Source: Gemmatimonadota bacterium
Lineage (GTDB): Bacteria > Gemmatimonadota > Gemmatimonadetes > Longimicrobiales > Gaopeijiaceae
DNA: 64,000 nt
Direction of reading: 5' to 3'
NCBI GenBank assembly: GCA_022823225.1
Contig: JAJDXM010000065.1
Location: 36,978-100,977, forward strand
The notes under the pieces are model-generated. The model did not search any database and was not told where the DNA came from. It was given only the letters and a program-made list of their open reading frames with translations. The position numbers and the translations under genes were made by a program. Of this stretch, positions 18,920-30,393 are shown one piece after another. Numbering within the stretch: the first letter of the stretch is position 1; each line of letters starts with the position of its first letter.

Positions 18920-20272
18920 TCAGCCGGGGGTCACGCCGAAAGTCGATCGGGCGGCACCCGGGGCCCCCGTCGAAGCGCCGGCCGCGCCGGAACTGGCCGG
19001 ACCGGAGCCGGCCCCCGACCGGGCCCGCGCGACGCTCCCCTCCCCGTGGGCCCCGCCAATGACGCGGTCCCGATCCACGAAGAAGAGGAATACGACCGTG
19101 GTCAGGCCGCTCACCGCCGTGAGCGCGAGCCCGTAGAACAGGCCGAAGGGCACGCCAAGCTGGTCGAGCACCAGCATCGTCCCCGCAATCAGAACGATGT
19201 ACCCCAGAGCCGCCGGCAGCAGCACCTTCCACCCCAGGTGCATGACCTGGTCGTAGCGGAAGCGCGGCAGCGTCCAGCGGATCCAGATGTAGACCAGCAC
19301 GAAGAATGCCGTCTTGGCGCAGAACGCACCGAGGGTCAGCAGCGTGATCAGCGCGCTCGGCGTCGCCGGGATCGGTGCCCCGGCTTCGTCGAATCCACGG
19401 ATCAGCGCGCCCTCGTGCCAGAACATGTCGTCGCCCTTCCAGACGGGGATGTCCCAGCCGCCGAAGAAGAGTGTCGCCATCAGCGCCGAAGCCGTGAGTA
19501 CATGCGCGTACTCCGCGATGAAGAACATCGAGAACTTCATCGCCGAATACTCCGTGTGGTATCCCGTGATCAGCTCCGATTCCGCCTCCGGCATGTCGAA
19601 TGGGAGCCGGTTGGTTTCGGCAAGCGCGGAGATCACGAAAAAGATGAACGCCAGCGAGAGCGGAAAGACGAACCAGAGCCCCAGCTGCTGCTGCTTCCAA
19701 ACCATCTCGGTGAGCGTCACGTTCCCGGCAAGCAGGAGCACCGCGATCACGCTGAGGCCGAGTGCAACCTCGTAGGAGATCATCTGCGCCGACGCCCGCA
19801 GGCCGCCCAGGAAGGCGTACTTGTTGTTCGACGCCCAGCCGGAAAGCACGATTCCGTAGACCGCCAGCGAGGACAGCGCCAGCACGTACAGGATGCCGAT
19901 CGGGACATCCGCGACCACCATGTCGACCGTCCCCACCGGCGTCGGGAGCGGAGCCGCGAAGGGGATCACCGCGAAGGTGACCACCGCCGGCATGATCGCG
20001 AGCATCGGTCCGAGCACGAAATAGAGCTTCGCGCTCGTGCCCGGCATCGTCTCTTCCTTGATCAGGTTCTTGAGCCCGTCGGCAATGGGTTGAAGCAGCC
20101 CGAAGGGTCCGACGCGGTTCGGCCCCAGACGATCCTGGATGAACGCCGACACCCTGCGTTCGGCAAGCGTCATGTACGCCACCGCGCCCATGACCACGGT
20201 GAAGACGGCCAGCACCTTCACGCCGCCGGCCACCCAGAACCAGAAGGTCGAGAGCTGGTTCATTTCATGCAT
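18920..20272 (-). CDS. nuoH: NADH-quinone oxidoreductase subunit H
   Basis: This 450-residue eight-helix subunit contributes to the quinone-binding site. Conserved segments include LAERRVSAFIQDRLGPNRVG, LADGLK-type IADGLKNLIKEE, and AETNRLPFDMPEAESELITG. The usual length is 325-430; here a low-complexity Ala/Gly/Ser tail of about 50 residues (GSVARARSGAGSGPASSGAA) follows the last helix. The start at 20272 overlaps the end of nuoG by eight bases; an in-frame ATG at 20263 is possible. Confidence 0.95.
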   Translation of the reverse strand: MHEMNQLSTFWFWVAGGVKVLAVFTVVMGAVAYMTLAERRVSAFIQDRLGPNRVGPFGLLQPIADGLKNLIKEETMPGTSAKLYFVLGPMLAIMPAVVTFAVIPFAAPLPTPVGTVDMVVADVPIGILYVLALSSLAVYGIVLSGWASNNKYAFLGGLRASAQMISYEVALGLSVIAVLLLAGNVTLTEMVWKQQQLGLWFVFPLSLAFIFFVISALAETNRLPFDMPEAESELITGYHTEYSAMKFSMFFIAEYAHVLTASALMATLFFGGWDIPVWKGDDMFWHEGALIRGFDEAGAPIPATPSALITLLTLGAFCAKTAFFVLVYIWIRWTLPRFRYDQVMHLGWKVLLPAALGYIVLIAGTMLVLDQLGVPFGLFYGLALTAVSGLTTVVFLFFVDRDRVIGGAHGEGSVARARSGAGSGPASSGAAGASTGAPGAARSTFGVTPG

Positions 20273-21869
20273 GGACGCCCTCCAGCGGCATCCCCGCGGT
20301 GCCGATGGCCTCGTGGGTCAGCCCCGCGAATGCGCCGTGGTCTTCGGCCATCCGGTCGAAGGCTGCGGACGCGCTGGCCGGCGTCTCCAGACCTCGTGCC
20401 GCCGCAGCGAGCGCGCCGAGCACCAGCCAGGCCGGCCGCGCCGAACCCGGTGCGTGCAGTCCCTGCCGGAAGCACTGCGCCCGGCCCTGCACATTCACGA
20501 ACGACCCTTCCTCCTCGGCGAAGGTCGTCACGGGCAGCACGAAGTCGGCGTTCACGGCCGCGGGCGAGTCGAAGGTGCCCAGATAGACGAAGAGGCTGGC
20601 GTTCGCGCCGAATCCCTCGTCCTGGTCCCGAAGCCCGTCGCCGAGCACCAGCAGGATTCCGTCGTGGTCCGCCACGTCCTCGAGCCCTCCCTCTCCCTCG
20701 TCGTCTCCCACTCGCTCCAACCCCAGGATTCCCGCGCCATGGACATTGGGGGCCAGGTCCCGGCGCCGCACCAGAAGGGGGAAGCCGGGCAGGGGATCCT
20801 CGTCCGGGGCCCGGGGGCACCTGAACACCCCGGAGGCACCGCCGTCCGCCGCCCCGCCCACGGCCAGGAGTCCGGCGAGCGCTTCGTTCGAACAGAAGGG
20901 CGACCCCACCATCCTGACGCTCGCGCCATCCTCGCCCTGCAACCTCCCGAAGAGCAGCTGCAGCGCCTCCTGCCAATCCGCTTCCCGGCGCCCATTCCCC
21001 CGCCCCACCGCCGGCTCCTCGAGCCGGCCGGGATGGTTCATCCACTCGTAGTTGGCGCGCCCGTAGTCGCACATCCAGTGGCCGTTGACCTCCCGATTCT
21101 CTCGCGGCTTCAGCCGCTGGACCAGGTTGTCGCGGGTGTGGAGCTCGATGTTGCAGCCCTGCGAGCACCCCGGGCAGATCGACTCCGTGTGGTCCAGATC
21201 CCAAGCGCGCGCCTTGTGCAGGAAGTCCTTCGACACGAGCGCGCCGACCGGACAGATGTCCACGATGTTGCCCGCGTACGACGCCCCCTCGAGTCCATGT
21301 TCGAAGAAGGTGTCGATCACCGCGCGGCTCCCCCGCTCCACCACCGTCAGGCGCGGATCGCGGGCGACTTCCTCCATGAAGCGCACGCAGCGGGTGCACA
21401 TCACGCAGCGGTCGCCGTAGAAGAGCACGTCCCCACCGAAATCGTCCCGCCCGAAGACGCGCTTGGGCTCGCGGCCGCGTCCCTTTTCGCGGCCCTCCTC
21501 GAAGACGTAGTCCTGCAGCATGCACTCGCCCGACATGTCGCAGATGGGACAGTCGAGCGGGTGGTTGACGAGGTAGAACTCGAGCACGCCCTGGCGCATG
21601 CGCCTCGCTGGCGCGCTGTCGGTATGGACGACCTGGCCGTCCTGGGCCATCGTCACGCACGACGGCTGCAGCTTGGGCGCGCCCTCCACCTCGACGAGAC
21701 AGATCCGGCACTGGGCCGGCGCGCTCAGCCCCGGGTGGTAGCAATAGTGCGGCACCTCGACGCCGATCCCATCGGCGGCTTGCAGCAGCGAGGTCCCCTT
21801 CGGGACCGTGACCTCCCGGCCGTCGATGGTCAGGGTGACCGTGTCCGGCTTGCGCCCGTTATCCGGCAT
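20265..21869 (-). CDS. nuoG: NADH-quinone oxidoreductase subunit G, short form
   Basis: This 534-residue iron-sulfur subunit has the [2Fe-2S] ligands (HYCYHPGLSAPAQCRICLVE), the His-Cys3 N5 site (HPLDCPICDMSGEC), the N4 site (CVMCTRCVRF and CPVGAL) and a fourth CxxCxxxCx27C motif (CPGCSQGC then GHWMCDYGR) like cluster N7. The region after it, normally a 400-600 residue molybdopterin-oxidoreductase-like domain, is cut to under 300 residues. NuoG proteins are commonly 700-900 residues. All electron-carrying clusters are retained, so function in complex I is expected. Confidence 0.9.
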   Translation of the reverse strand: MPDNGRKPDTVTLTIDGREVTVPKGTSLLQAADGIGVEVPHYCYHPGLSAPAQCRICLVEVEGAPKLQPSCVTMAQDGQVVHTDSAPARRMRQGVLEFYLVNHPLDCPICDMSGECMLQDYVFEEGREKGRGREPKRVFGRDDFGGDVLFYGDRCVMCTRCVRFMEEVARDPRLTVVERGSRAVIDTFFEHGLEGASYAGNIVDICPVGALVSKDFLHKARAWDLDHTESICPGCSQGCNIELHTRDNLVQRLKPRENREVNGHWMCDYGRANYEWMNHPGRLEEPAVGRGNGRREADWQEALQLLFGRLQGEDGASVRMVGSPFCSNEALAGLLAVGGAADGGASGVFRCPRAPDEDPLPGFPLLVRRRDLAPNVHGAGILGLERVGDDEGEGGLEDVADHDGILLVLGDGLRDQDEGFGANASLFVYLGTFDSPAAVNADFVLPVTTFAEEEGSFVNVQGRAQCFRQGLHAPGSARPAWLVLGALAAAARGLETPASASAAFDRMAEDHGAFAGLTHEAIGTAGMPLEGVHA

Positions 21870-21926
21870 GTGCCGTCCTCCTCGGGTCCGGGGATCGAAC
21901 CGGGCGGGATGCTCGCGTGCGCCGCA

Positions 21927-23219
<1,293 letters not shown>

Positions 23220-23226
23220 GGTCTGG

Positions 23227-23910
23227 CTATTCCGGAGTCGGGGCGGTGTCGCCGCCGCCATTCAGTTCCGACTTGAGGCGCGCCAGGATCCCGGGCACGT
23301 CAGCCACGGAAACGTCCTCGAAATAGCGTTCATTGATCTGCACGCAGGTCGGGAAGCCGCAGGCCGCGAGGCACTCCGCCTCGGCCACGGTGAAGTTGCC
23401 GTCGGCCGAGGTGTCCCCCAGCTCGGTGCCCGTGTGCTCGAGGAAGGCCGCGAGGACCTCGTCGGCGCCGCAGAGATTGCAGGAGATGTTGGTGCAGACC
23501 TGTATGAGGAAGCGCCCCACGGGACGCTTGTTGTACATCGTGTAGAAGGTGGCCACGCCCCGCACATAGGCGCTGCCCAGCCCGAGCAGCTCCGCCACCT
23601 CGTCCATCGTCTCGGGGGAGACGTAGCCGCGCAGCTCCTGCGCCAGGTTCAGAGCCGGGAGCAGGGCGGCCATTGCCGTCGGGTAGCGGCTGCGGATCTT
23701 CTCGAACCGCTCCTGGTACGGGCCTTCGAAGAGGGGTGCGGCGGGGTCCCTTTCCACCAGCTGGAAGGGGTGGCTGGCCGCGGTACTGGGGTGCCTGCCC
23801 TCCGGGGGCAGCTCTCCCGCATAGCCGGCGCCCCGCACGTCGTCCTCGGTCAGGTCGAATTCCCCCGTGTTGCCGGCCCAGCCGGGGTTGTGGAAGCGCG
23901 CCCCGCTCAC
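23227..23910 (-). CDS. nuoE: NADH-quinone oxidoreductase subunit E ([2Fe-2S] N1a)
   Basis: This 227-residue thioredoxin-fold subunit has the N1a ligands in QVCTNISCNLCGAD (first cysteine pair) and EAECLAACGFPTCVQINE. The helical N-terminal segment LLPALNLAQELRGYVSPETM is typical. The start is a GTG overlapping the nuoD stop codon (GTGA). About 65 residues before the conserved core are variable, longer than in many NuoE proteins. Confidence 0.93.
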   Translation of the reverse strand: MSGARFHNPGWAGNTGEFDLTEDDVRGAGYAGELPPEGRHPSTAASHPFQLVERDPAAPLFEGPYQERFEKIRSRYPTAMAALLPALNLAQELRGYVSPETMDEVAELLGLGSAYVRGVATFYTMYNKRPVGRFLIQVCTNISCNLCGADEVLAAFLEHTGTELGDTSADGNFTVAEAECLAACGFPTCVQINERYFEDVSVADVPGILARLKSELNGGGDTAPTPE

Positions 23911-25184
23911 CGGTCGATCTCTCCCAGCACGATGTCCAGGCTCGCGTTGATCATGATGAGGTCCGCCATCAGGTGCCCCTCGGACAGCTTCGGTATCGCG
24001 GACAGGTTCACGAACGAGGGCGGCCGGATCCGCCAGCGCACCGGCTTCGGCCCCCCGTCGCCCACCACGTACATCCCAAGCTCCCCCTTCGAGCCCTCCA
24101 CCGAGAACCAGCAGTCCTCGGCGGGTGCAGGTATGCCCTCGGTGATGAGCTTGAAGTGGTGGATCATCGACTCCATGTCGGACATGCAGTCGGTCTTCGA
24201 CGGCAGGCTGATCCTCGGGTCCTCGACGTCCATGGGGCCATCCGGAAGCCGGTCGAGCGCCTGGTGGAGAATGCGGACGCTCTGGCGCATCTCCTCCATG
24301 CGGACCAGGTAGCGGTCGTAGCAGTCGCCGTGGCACCCGATCGGCACCTCGAAGTCGTAGCTCCCGTAGTCGTAGTAGGGCCGGTCCTTGCGCACGTCGT
24401 ACGGCACGCCGCTCGCCCGGAGGTTGGCCCCGGTCAGTCCGTGGTTCACCGCTTCTTCCGCCGAAATCGCCCCAATCCCCTGGGTCCGTCCGACGTGGAT
24501 CGCATTGCAGGTAAGAAGTCCGTCGATCTCGTCAAGGGTCGCGGGGAGATTGTCGGCGAATTCGCGGACACCCTTCGTCCAGCCCTCCGGCAGGTCGGCC
24601 ATCATCCCGCCGATCCGCGTCGACGATGTCGTGATGCGGGCACCGGTGAGCGCCTCGTGAAGCGTGTACACCTTCTCGCGCTGCTGGAAGGCGTAGAGGA
24701 AGGGGGTGAAGGCGCCCACGTCGATCGACCAGGTCCCGAGCCAAAGCAGGTGGGAGAAGATCCGGTCCATCTCCATGCAGATCACCCGCGCGACCTTGCA
24801 GCGTTCCGTTACCTCGATGCCCATAAGCTTTTCCACGGCCATCACATAGGCGCAGTTGTAGATGAGCGGCGCGAGGTAGTCCATCCGGTCGGTCAGCGTC
24901 ACGATCTGGTTCCAGGTGCGGTACTCGCCCAGCTTCTCGAAGGACGAATGGAGGTAGCCGAGCCGCGGCACCACGCTCACAACCGTCTCGCCGTCGAGCT
25001 CCACCACCAGACGCAGCACGCCGTGGGTCGCGGGATGCTGCGGCCCGACGTTCACCAGCATCGTCTGGGAGCCAAGTTCGGGTTCGGGTGCGTCGAAGGG
25101 CTCCGTCGGGCTGGCGACCGGCTTTCCGTGCGGTCCCATCTCGGGGTTGCGTCGGACGGCGTATTCGACCGTGCTAGAGGACAT
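23907..25184 (-). CDS. nuoD: NADH-quinone oxidoreductase subunit D
   Basis: This 425-residue 49-kDa-type subunit lies at the quinone site. Conserved stretches include MLVNVGPQHPATHGVLRLVV, LGYLHSSFEKLGEYRTWNQ and YYDYGSYDFEVPIGCHGDCY. The ATG at 25184 (GAGGGGG upstream) overlaps the end of nuoC by 11 bases. NuoC and NuoD are separate here, unlike the fused NuoCD of enterobacteria. Confidence 0.95.
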   Translation of the reverse strand: MSSSTVEYAVRRNPEMGPHGKPVASPTEPFDAPEPELGSQTMLVNVGPQHPATHGVLRLVVELDGETVVSVVPRLGYLHSSFEKLGEYRTWNQIVTLTDRMDYLAPLIYNCAYVMAVEKLMGIEVTERCKVARVICMEMDRIFSHLLWLGTWSIDVGAFTPFLYAFQQREKVYTLHEALTGARITTSSTRIGGMMADLPEGWTKGVREFADNLPATLDEIDGLLTCNAIHVGRTQGIGAISAEEAVNHGLTGANLRASGVPYDVRKDRPYYDYGSYDFEVPIGCHGDCYDRYLVRMEEMRQSVRILHQALDRLPDGPMDVEDPRISLPSKTDCMSDMESMIHHFKLITEGIPAPAEDCWFSVEGSKGELGMYVVGDGGPKPVRWRIRPPSFVNLSAIPKLSEGHLMADLIMINASLDIVLGEIDR

Positions 25185-25920
25185 CGGCTTCCCCCTCGCC
25201 GCCCGCGCCGGCACCGCTCGCCTTCGCCTCGTCCCCATCGTCCGCGCCGCTCGCCACCACTTGCGGAGTCCGCTCGCCGATCTCGCCGGGCATGTAGTAG
25301 TCCTCCGGATCCTGGGTCAGCGCCCGGCGCGTCTGCTCCGCGCGCGAGAACCGGCCCCGCAGCGGGAAGTCCTTCCGCAGCGGGTGCCCTTCGGCGTAGT
25401 TCTCCGGCATGAGGATCCGCCGAAGGTCCGGGTGACCCCGGAAGTGCACGCCGAAGAGGTCGTAGACTTCGCGTTCAAGCCAGTTCGCTCCCTGCCAGAT
25501 CCCGGTGACGCTCTCGATTTCCAGCGCGTCAAGCGGGAGCTCGCACTTGACCCTGAGGGCCGAGCGTTGGGGGATCGACCAGAGCTGGTAGACGACCTCG
25601 ATCGGCCTTCCGCCGCCATGGTCGACCGCGGTCACGTCGGCGAGGTGATCGTAGTGCTGGTCGGGCGTCTCGTGGAGCCAGCGCAGGATTTCGGCGACGC
25701 GCCCGGAGTCGATATGGACGACATCCTGATCGCCGGCGCATACCCGGTTGCGGAGAACTCCGTCCGGGAACTGTCGGCGCAGCGCGGTCACGGAGGGGTT
25801 GACCGGCGGAACGTTCCCCGCCTCGGCCGTGTCGGGCGCGGGGTCGTGTCCCTTCCGCCCTCCGGCCGCCACCAGTCCGAAATCGGGCGCGGAGCCCCCG
25901 GATCCCAGGTCGGACGTCAA
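25174..25920 (-). CDS. nuoC: NADH-quinone oxidoreductase subunit C
   Basis: This 30-kDa-type peripheral subunit of about 248 residues has the family signature WLEREVYDLFGVHFRGHPDL followed by RRILMPENYAEGHPLRKDFP. The outermost start is a TTG at 25920 with no clear ribosome site; several internal GTG codons could be the true start, since the first 35 residues are not conserved. The C-terminal 40 residues are acidic and Ala/Gly-rich. It lies between nuoB and nuoD. Confidence 0.88.
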   Translation of the reverse strand: MTSDLGSGGSAPDFGLVAAGGRKGHDPAPDTAEAGNVPPVNPSVTALRRQFPDGVLRNRVCAGDQDVVHIDSGRVAEILRWLHETPDQHYDHLADVTAVDHGGGRPIEVVYQLWSIPQRSALRVKCELPLDALEIESVTGIWQGANWLEREVYDLFGVHFRGHPDLRRILMPENYAEGHPLRKDFPLRGRFSRAEQTRRALTQDPEDYYMPGEIGERTPQVVASGADDGDEAKASGAGAGGEGEADVL

Positions 25921-25963
25921 CGCACCGGCCCCCGGACGGGAAGGCGGAAGTTGGGAGCAACGG

Positions 25964-26617
25964 TCACGGGAGGCGGTCCTCCGGGCGACCGATCGCGCCG
26001 GTTTCCACCAGGCCGCTGACCCGGTTCTGATCGGTCGAGTTGCCGAAAGGCCCCGTCAGATCGGCGACCTCCTCGTCGCCGGCGCGCGGCCGGCCGGCCC
26101 CGAGCGGATCCTCGGCCCGCAGCGCGGCGTGATCGGCCAGACTCTCGCCCCGGATCTTCTCCTGAACCATCATCAGCCCGTAGATCAGCCCCTCCGGGCG
26201 CGGGGGGCATCCCGGAATGTAGACGTCCACCGGCACGATCGTGTCGATCCCCTGCACCATCGAGTACACGTCGAAGACGCCGCCCGACGACGCACAGGCG
26301 CCCATGGAGATGCACCACTTCGGCTGCATCATCTGGTCCCAGATCCGGCGCAGCACCGGCGCCAGCTTGTACGGCACGCGCCCCGCGCAGATGAGCACGT
26401 CCGCCTGCCGGGGACTGAACGACATGCGCTCCATCCCGAAACGGGCCAGATCGAAGTTGCTCGCCGCCGACGCCATCATCTCGATCGCGCAGCAGGCGGT
26501 CCCGAAGGGCATCGGCCAAAGCGAATTGCGCCGCGCCCAGTTCACCACGAAGTCGAGCCGAGTGGTGAGAAAGGCCGGCGTGCCGGCACCGGGAAGTCCC
26601 GGGTTCGCTACTCCCAT
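25964..26617 (-). CDS. nuoB: NADH-quinone oxidoreductase subunit B ([4Fe-4S] N2)
   Basis: This subunit of about 217 residues holds cluster N2, which reduces quinone. The ligands are visible in [21 protein letters not shown] and [13 protein letters not shown] [13 protein letters not shown]. The ATG at 26617 overlaps the end of nuoA by ten bases. The C-terminus after the core is a polar extension of about 50 residues rich in Ala, Arg and Asp. Confidence 0.95.
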
Positions 26618-26964
26618 TCCAGGCCCCCTTTCCTCCATTCGTACAGCAGCCCCACGGCCAGCACGGCCACGAACAGGAACACGGCCACGAAGGGGCCCCA
26701 CCCGAGTTCGCGCACCCGTACCGCCCAGGGGACGAGGAAGATCGTCTCGAGGTCGAAGACGATAAAGCTGATCGCCACCATGTAGAACTTGATCGAGAAG
26801 CGAGCCCGGGTGTCCCCGAGGGGGATCATCCCCGACTCATAGGGCATCGACTTCTGTGCGGTGGGGCGGCTCGGGTTGAGGACGTGCGACGCGACCGCCA
26901 TCCCCACGGCGTTCAGGACCGTCACGCCGAAGATGATCAGGAGCGGTATGTAGGACTTCGCCAT
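26608..26964 (-). CDS. nuoA: NADH-quinone oxidoreductase subunit A
   Basis: This 118-residue, three-helix subunit is the first gene of the complex I operon. The conserved loop [20 protein letters not shown] and the motif [16 protein letters not shown] are both present. The ATG at 26964 has only a weak ribosome site. A candidate promoter and a Rex-like palindrome lie 84-156 bases upstream. Confidence 0.95.
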
Positions 26965-27047: not shown

Positions 27048-27079
27048 CATGCGCTTGTGAAAACTTTCACGAGCGCATG
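27048..27079. promoter_or_regulatory. 32-bp palindrome containing a Rex-type operator, upstream of nuoA
   Basis: The two 16-base arms match at 14 of 16 positions around a centre between 27063 and 27064. The inner 18 bases (27055-27072) read TTGTGAA-AACT-TTCACGA, one base away from the Rex repressor consensus TTGTGAA-N4-TTCACAA. Rex senses the NADH/NAD+ ratio and controls respiratory genes, including nuo, in actinobacteria. The site lies about 13-30 bases after the predicted start of nuo transcription, where binding would block elongation. No U-run follows, so a terminator is unlikely. A rex gene is not in the window. Confidence 0.65.
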
Positions 27080-27091
27080 AATCAAGGCTGA

Positions 27092-27120
27092 AAGATACTG
27101 GCCAACACGGGCGGATTCAA
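27092..27120 (-). promoter_or_regulatory. Candidate sigma70-type promoter of the nuo operon
   Basis: Read on the minus strand, TTGAAT (27120-27115) is followed after 17 bases by TATCTT (27097-27092). Both hexamers match the consensus at four of six positions with ideal spacing. Transcription would start near 27085, leaving a leader of about 120 bases before nuoA that contains the Rex-like palindrome. This is a pattern match only. Confidence 0.45.
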
Positions 27121-27319: not shown

Positions 27320-27871
27320 ATGCCCGTCAAGAGTGACCGCTGGATCCGCAGAATGGCCCTCGATCACCGCATGATCGAGCCCTTCGAGAGCGGTCAGGTC
27401 AGGAACGGCAGCATCTCCTACGGACTCTCCTCCTTCGGCTACGACATCCGCGTGGCACCGGAGTTCAAGGTCTTCACCAACGTCCACAACCTGGTGGTGG
27501 ACCCGAAGGCGTTCGACGAACGGTCATTCGTGGATGTCACGGGTGACTGCATCATCCCGCCGAATTCGTTCGCGCTGGCACGGACCGTGGAGCACTTCAA
27601 AATCCCCCGCGACGTGCTCGTGCTGTGCGTGGGCAAGAGCACCTATGCGCGCTGCGGCATCATCGTCAACGTGACCCCCCTGGAACCGACCTGGGAGGGG
27701 TTCCTGACGCTGGAGATATCCAACACCACCCCTCTTCCGGCGAAGATCTACGGCGGCGAAGGGATCGCCCAGCTGGTCTTCTTTCAGGGAGACGAACCGC
27801 CGAAGGTGGCGTACGCGGACCGGAGCGGGAAGTACCAGGGACAGGTGGGGGTCACGCTGCCGAAGCTGTAG
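27320..27871 (+). CDS. dcd: dCTP deaminase
   Basis: This 183-residue enzyme deaminates dCTP to dUTP for thymidylate synthesis. The catalytic and binding signature is [19 protein letters not shown] followed by [13 protein letters not shown] with the catalytic glutamate. The N-terminal [17 protein letters not shown] is also typical. It is divergent from the nuo operon; the 355-base space between holds both candidate promoters and the Rex-like site. Confidence 0.93.
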
Positions 27872-29466: not shown

Positions 29467-30393
29467 CTACAGACTCGCCATGACCGCCCGCACGTGGTCC
29501 GCGCTCTTCGCCAGCGCGGCGCTCTCGCTGTCGGTGAGTTCGACCTCGACCACCTCCATCAGGCCGCCTTCCCCAAGTTTGCAGGGCACGCCCAGATAGA
29601 TGCCCTGCTGCCCGTACTCGCCCTCCAGGTACGCGGCCGCCGGAAGAATGCGCCGCTTGTCGCGCACGATCGACTCGGCCATCTGCACCGCCGCCGCCGA
29701 GGGCGCGTAGTAGGCGCTACCCGTCTTCAGATGCTTCACGATCTCGGCCCCCCCGTTGCGGGTGCGCTCGATGATCGCGTCGAGACGGGCCCGCCCGACA
29801 AGGCGCGAGACCGGGATGCCGCTGACGGAGGTGTAGGACACGAGCGGCACCATCGTGTCGCCGTGCCCGCCCAGGACCATCGCCTGGATGTCCTCGACGC
29901 TCACGTCCAGCTCCATGGCGATGAAAGCGCGGAAGCGGGCCGTGTCGAGGACGCCCGCCATGCCGATGACCCGCTCGCGCGGGAACCCGGTCGTTTCCCT
30001 GGCGACGTAGGCCATCACGTCGAGGGGGTTCGAAACCACGATCACCACTGCATCCGGCGCCACCCGCGCGATCTCGCTGCTCACCGACCGCACGATGCCG
30101 GCGTTGGTGCGCAACAGGTCGTCGCGGCTCATCCCCGGCTTGCGGGCGATCCCCGCCGTCACGATGAAGAGATCGGACCCTTCGGCGGGGCAGTAGTCGT
30201 TCGCGCCCGTGACCATCGTGTCGAAGCCCTCGACCGGCGCGCTCTGCCACTGGTCGAGACCTTTCCCCTGCGGAATGCCCTCGACGATGTCGATGAGGAC
30301 GACCTCCCGGCACAACTCCTTCTCGGCGAGCCTCTGGGCACAGACTTCGCCGACGTGCCCGGCGCCGACTACGGTGATTTTTCCGGCAGACAT
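29467..30393 (-). CDS. mdh: Malate dehydrogenase (lactate-dehydrogenase-like type)
   Basis: This 308-residue NAD-dependent enzyme has the [13 protein letters not shown] dinucleotide motif at the N-terminus with an aspartate acceptor (VVLID), the mobile substrate loop [12 protein letters not shown] and the catalytic [10 protein letters not shown]. The Met-Ser-Arg of the loop favours malate over lactate. It oxidises malate to oxaloacetate in the TCA cycle. It lies alone between a convergent gene and the moa operon. Confidence 0.93.

Follow-up and report, generated by a model that had tools for sequence, protein, structure and literature searches.

A predicted Rex operator ahead of the nuo operon in Gemmatimonadota and Rex-type sites within the genes of one genus

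Results

The nuo locus and its operator

The window analyzed here is a stretch of 64,000 nucleotides from a Gemmatimonadota genome (G000) and carries the complex I (nuo) operon on the minus strand. The first gene of the operon, nuoA, lies at 26608..26964 and starts with an ATG at 26964. Its best NCBIfam match was NADH-quinone oxidoreductase subunit A with an E value of 4e-30, under that model's own cut-off. It is followed by nuoB, nuoC, nuoD, nuoE, nuoF, nuoG, and nuoH (18920..26701, minus strand), which matched NCBIfam subunits B to H in order. The divergent gene dcd, encoding dCTP deaminase, occupies 27320..27871 on the plus strand and starts 248 nt from the operator described below. A malate dehydrogenase gene is located near nuo at 29467-30393.

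A 32-bp imperfect palindrome is located at 27048..27079 and reads CATGCGCTTGTGAAAACTTTCACGAGCGCATG. Its arms, 16 bases each, are complementary at all but two positions (14 of 16), the two mismatches being those claimed in the original prediction. It encloses a Rex-type operator at 27055..27072. These inner 18 bases agree with TTGTGAANNNNTTCACAA at 13 of the 14 specified bases, and the one-base departure from the Rex consensus that had been claimed was therefore confirmed. The sole departure is a G for A at 27071 on the plus strand, in the nuo-distal half. On the nuo strand (minus) the operator reads TCGTGAAAGTTTTCACAA, that is TCGTGAA-AGTT-TTCACAA, and its near end is at -91 relative to the nuoA ATG. 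It was the sole match at up to three mismatches within the 64 kb, where 0.36 were expected, and 30 of 100 shuffled versions of the window contained one or more matches of this quality. A further copy had been suggested before mdh but no Rex-type site at up to three mismatches was found ahead of the malate dehydrogenase gene in the window.

The outer arms of the palindrome are less widespread than its center. Outer-arm pairs -2, -3, and -4 were kept in 100, 100, and 86% of 21 genomes of the genus, respectively, while outer-arm pairing was close to chance in 60 operator-bearing genomes from other genera. The 32-bp extension is thus largely peculiar to the species and genus, and the Rex part is taken to be the inner 18 bp.

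A nuo promoter was predicted upstream of the operator. The predicted -10 element TATCTT (27092..27097, minus strand) lies 19 nt before the operator and is separated by a 17-nt spacer from the predicted -35 element TTGAAT (27115..27120, minus strand). The permissive search used (TTGNNN, 16-18 nt, TANNNT) found a -35/-10-like pair upstream of the site in 78 of the 81 site-bearing genomes. The pair ends 8-21 nt ahead of the operator in 77 of the 81, the arrangement seen in the window, and 2 nt ahead in one. Many other genera show TTGACA as the -35 element. The window's own promoter agrees with the consensus at 8 of 12 bases and was absent from the promoter-scan list because the threshold there was 9. 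The plausible promoter claimed just ahead of the site therefore has its like in most site-bearing genomes but is itself weak and unlisted by a consensus scan. The operator start, 8-21 nt past the -10-like hexamer, is further downstream than that of a textbook operator.

Rex and the conservation of the nuo site

A single rex gene was found in the window's genome, in line with the need for a rex homologue. The product is full-length at 212 amino acids and scored 241.9 bits against the NCBIfam Rex equivalog NF003992 (cut-off 226). It aligned with the Thermus Rex structure 3ikt over residues 8-208 with an E value of 2.6e-44. The recognition-helix and NAD-pocket signatures of Rex are both present, and the motifs QVRKDL and GAGRIG were identical across the 11 Rex proteins compared, out of 94 genomes with a match.

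The search for Rex covered 98 genomes, that of the window among them. Fourteen weak partial matches (E 2e-7 to 8e-4) were disregarded, and the class termed standard Rex takes in a few partial matches at contig ends, for example in G064 and G072. NuoA was sought in the same 98 genomes and found in 91, with no match in the other seven. The region upstream of nuoA was read in 90 genomes (30 + 60 loci) of which 89 were evaluable; G024 was left out for its partial NuoA match and G020 for a contig end 34 nt ahead of nuoA.

A site at up to two mismatches was present before nuoA in 81 of the 89 evaluable genomes. Random regions of like dinucleotide make-up gave four such matches in 17,400. Among genomes with standard Rex, own genome included, 80 of 82 had the site within 200 nt of nuoA, showing the palindrome's core to be kept upstream of nuoA far beyond the close relatives for which conservation had been proposed as a check. 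All 21 Rex-bearing members of the genus with enough upstream sequence had it. G031 and G092 have standard Rex but no nuo site. Where no Rex was found the site was present in one of five genomes, the exception being G086, which is 72% complete and lacks Rex by the E-value rule. The site was missing in G011, G030, G033, and G070, with an apparent half-site relic at nuo in G070. With the comparison confined to genomes at least 90% complete the site was present in 69 of 71 standard-Rex and 0 of 4 Rex-less genomes, and these four near-complete Rex-less genomes fall in four genera. Fisher's test gave 3e-5 for standard Rex against no Rex found and 1e-5 at ≥90% completeness, values which overstate independence because the genomes are related and which serve as a guide only.

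A divergent Rex of 32-37% identity was observed in three genera (G041, G050, and G056; loci L089, L096, L377, L378, and L379). Of the divergent-Rex genomes evaluated at nuo, G041 and G050, neither had the site. In both, the place of the nuo operator is taken by AAGTGACCGATTTCAC, which may be an altered operator. No clear partner for AAGTGACCGATTTCAC was seen upstream of the divergent rex genes of these two genomes.

The two halves of the nuo site are not equally conserved. Of 81 genomes, 76 have TTCACAA as the nuo-proximal half. The nuo-distal half differs from TTGTGAA in 80 of the 81, reading TCGTGAA in 33, AAGTGAA in 30, TAGTGAA in nine, and ACGTGAA in eight. The nuo-distal half may have been kept imperfect to make repression of nuo weaker than that of rex.

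Sites at rex and at the ATP synthase operon

Of the 30 best-matching rex loci, 28 carry a perfect site at the gene or upstream of it; those of G009 and G047 have none. In the window's genome rex has a GTG as its first possible start codon, and this codon falls within the gene's own perfect operator (L007:1501-1518). VNxFT was read at the rex start in most rex loci of the genus (L018-L039). A likely start within an operator was also observed for a GH3 gene (L009), ABC-2-permease-like genes (L137, L138), and the gene at L014.

The suggestion of a further copy before ATP synthase genes was borne out by two sites in the window's genome. These Rex-type sites form a tandem pair, 24 bp apart, ahead of the ATP synthase operon (L139:1501-1542), with a MoxR-like ATPase gene lying divergently. 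The operon was recognized there by subunit a (Pfam). Among 30 chosen genomes, a site at up to two mismatches preceded the operon in 20 of the 23 with standard Rex, in none of the four Rex-less ones, and in one of the three with divergent Rex. The exceptions with standard Rex are G040, where the match has three mismatches, G046, and G095, for which the locus includes 587 nt of upstream sequence only. G031, which has no nuo site, keeps the one before ATP synthase. Since the same operator is found at rex and before ATP synthase, rex, nuo, and atp likely form an old core circuit, as judged from these sequence comparisons.

Rex-type sites within genes of the genus

The window's genome has 27 places matching the operator at up to one mismatch, 11 of them perfect, and none matching a reversed control pattern. 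Copies at this threshold numbered 12-34 in 21 of the 23 genomes of the genus and 0-7 in 75 genomes of other genera. The remaining two, G009 and G011, have two copies each, G009 with Rex and G011 without. The reversed pattern makes a weak null within coding sequence, since the codons of GTG-AAN-NNN-TTC-ACA are acceptable in GC-rich genes. The expansion was therefore judged against the other genera and from two genes whose loci were collected whether or not they had the site, carB and a class I E/Q-type tRNA synthetase gene.

The 27 sites were sorted with a codon-usage gene caller written for this analysis. Fourteen are inside genes (L002, L004, L006, L010, L012, L013, L141, and others), one of which, L142, may be a start. 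Five span a likely start codon, rex included, and eight are upstream, intergenic, or at a gene end. In addition to carB and the tRNA synthetase gene the intragenic hosts include a salicylyl-CoA-hydroxylase-like gene, an ABC ATPase gene, and a LUD-domain gene. A site was present at the aligned place of the 27 in 18 cases in G021 and 6 in G001, counts that come from fetched site-bearing stretches alone, in which lost sites could not show.

The carB site was present at up to one mismatch in 17 of 23 members of the genus and at two mismatches in two more. It was absent in G001, G009, G011, and G018 and in all three outgroups. The holders have TGT GAA AGG or CGG, and ATT CAC, where G001 and G018 have TGC GAG or GAA, and CGC ATC TAC. 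Translated by eye these are the same residues with other codons, plus a change of tyrosine to histidine. The tRNA synthetase site was present in 16 of the 22 members in which the gene was found and in neither of two outgroups, being absent in G001, G004, G009, G011, G017, and G020. Here the holders have FT, IT, or VT and the others VS, IS, or VA. The N4 center varies among holders of intragenic sites. At both genes this speaks for selection on the DNA within coding sequence, and because the consensus is shared Rex is the inferred selector. One in-frame TGA was observed in the carB reading frame of G018 (L309).

In a four-protein tree G011 forms a long branch basal to the rest of the genus; the place of G009 in that tree is weakly supported (0.49). 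G011 may have left before the operator expansion, and owing to this possible early split its lack of Rex is no proof that the intragenic sites depend on Rex. Its two one-mismatch sites (L239, L244) had no nucleotide similarity to the site loci compared, which were 24 loci of G000 for L239, and L143 (G000) and L262 (G021) for L244.

Observations were also made at thyX. In the window's genome a perfect Rex-type site lies 55 bp upstream of thyX and overlaps the end of the preceding gene (L011:1446-1518). A perfect site was upstream of thyX in 7 of 24 loci read (G000, G005, G008, G012, G013, G021, and G022), with G004 and G016 not judgeable as their loci begin less than 180 nt from the thyX motif. 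The ThyX match is interrupted by an insertion in 14 of the 22 members of the genus with a match and is unbroken in the window's genome. The one insertion tested, in G015, is an intein, with TIGR01443 over its cut-off (L342:1501-3039).

Discussion

The palindrome is very probably a Rex operator, through which Rex is predicted to repress nuo as long as NADH is low. Nearly all standard-Rex genomes have the site ahead of nuoA and the four near-complete Rex-less ones do not, and for this reason Rex likely restrains complex I until NADH builds up. Other explanations were weighed against the same comparisons. A CRP box has a TGTGA-N6-TCACA core with a spacing identical to that of the Rex-type operator core. 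A CRP-like protein of the CRP/FNR family could thus own the palindrome as far as core and spacing go, and a CRP-type HTH exceeded the Pfam cut-off in 45 of 98 genomes. Within the genus, however, only G000 and G011 reached the HTH_Crp_2 cut-off among the matches listed. The G000 match was marginal (27 bits with neighbors, 34 of 70 positions) and G011, over the HTH cut-off, has neither Rex nor the site. The presence of the site tracks Rex, with a perfect copy at rex itself, and a CRP/FNR-family site is very improbable. Also very improbable as the main cause is an RNA hairpin of the nuo leader acting as a stability or attenuation element, with the 32-bp symmetry as its stem. The leader folds at z -4.5 in G000 and -2.4 in G021. 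In the outer arms of the genus 4 of 14 pairs are changed on both sides, a number reached by 17 of 500 shuffles, and the covariation score was reached by 1 of 500. Against this, all 19 distinct sequences of the genus have a C-A mismatch at pair 14-29, no Rfam match was found at E 0.1, and the 60 genomes from other genera retain the operator with outer positions pairing at about chance. An RNA stem may have been added within the genus without being what conserves the site.

The site could also regulate the divergent dcd instead of nuo, since dcd is in the fetched locus for 64 of 77 site-bearing loci. In the other 13 genomes the site is kept although no dcd was found in the fetched locus, which covers about 1-1.5 kb upstream, on account of which dcd is probably not the operator's target. 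In G031, G041, G050, and G070, moreover, dcd is present and the site is not. The promoter-like pair next to the operator is oriented toward nuoA, with the dcd start at a distance, and the reading of dcd as sole target deserves little credence. A chance palindrome is a negligible explanation. Matches at up to three mismatches do arise in shuffles of the window, but the observed site has one mismatch, and the rates at up to two mismatches given above (81/89 real regions against 4/17,400 random ones) had already refuted it by conservation.

If the palindrome is a Rex operator, Rex with NAD+ would sit over about +5 to +30 and block RNA polymerase leaving the nuo promoter. NADH would release Rex, and complex I would be made, and ATP synthase with it, when NADH accumulates. 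The rex gene would answer to the same NADH signal as nuo and atp. This is a testable redox circuit for a largely uncultured and widespread phylum, in which a single NADH/NAD+ sensor would govern complex I and ATP synthase alike. The Rex-less relatives would be natural knock-outs without the nuo and atp operators.

Within the genus, whose members are probably sponge-associated, Rex may have grown from a respiratory switch with three targets to a genome-wide regulator with operators in coding sequence, a proposal given about an even chance on the site comparisons. The genus may be Candidatus Palauibacter, from an order that occurs in sponges as well as elsewhere (PMC10469786). Codons and amino acids would have been altered to fit the operator, and NAD(H) state would consequently gate the elongation or the translation starts of catabolic and biosynthetic genes. 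The spread into coding sequence, at about 27 sites, would be a natural case of regulator sites constraining codons and residues. It may be a new variant of Rex control. No paper on Rex in Gemmatimonadota and none on intragenic Rex sites was found in the open-licence PMC literature.

Rex on nuo is already known in Streptomyces and the predicted nuo operator of the window is a further instance. Passages of PMC6125430 and PMC8063818 describe Rex regulating nuoA-N in Streptomyces and NADH freeing Rex from DNA. The precedent of Rex control of nuo noted in the original prediction was confirmed in these and in passages of PMC6018154, which also give the published Rex consensus as TTGTGAAWWWWTTCACAA for S. 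aureus and TGTGAACNNNTTCACA for S. coelicolor. As far as the passages of these three papers go, the present operator and that of Streptomyces coelicolor nuoA-N are alike in regulator family, consensus, target operon, and an autoregulated rex. They differ in phylum, in the site carried here by the ATP synthase operon too, and in the nuo-distal half-site, imperfect here in nearly every genome. Streptomyces Rex also targets hemACD and cydABCD. CRP/FNR boxes differ in that the presence of the present site follows Rex and not a CRP-type protein. The Rex systems of Firmicutes (S. aureus, B. subtilis, and S. pneumoniae) share operators of the TTGTGAA-N4-TTCACAA type and the response to NADH, according to passages of PMC6018154. 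In contrast to these, the conserved targets in Gemmatimonadota are respiration and ATP synthesis, and one genus has many intragenic operators.
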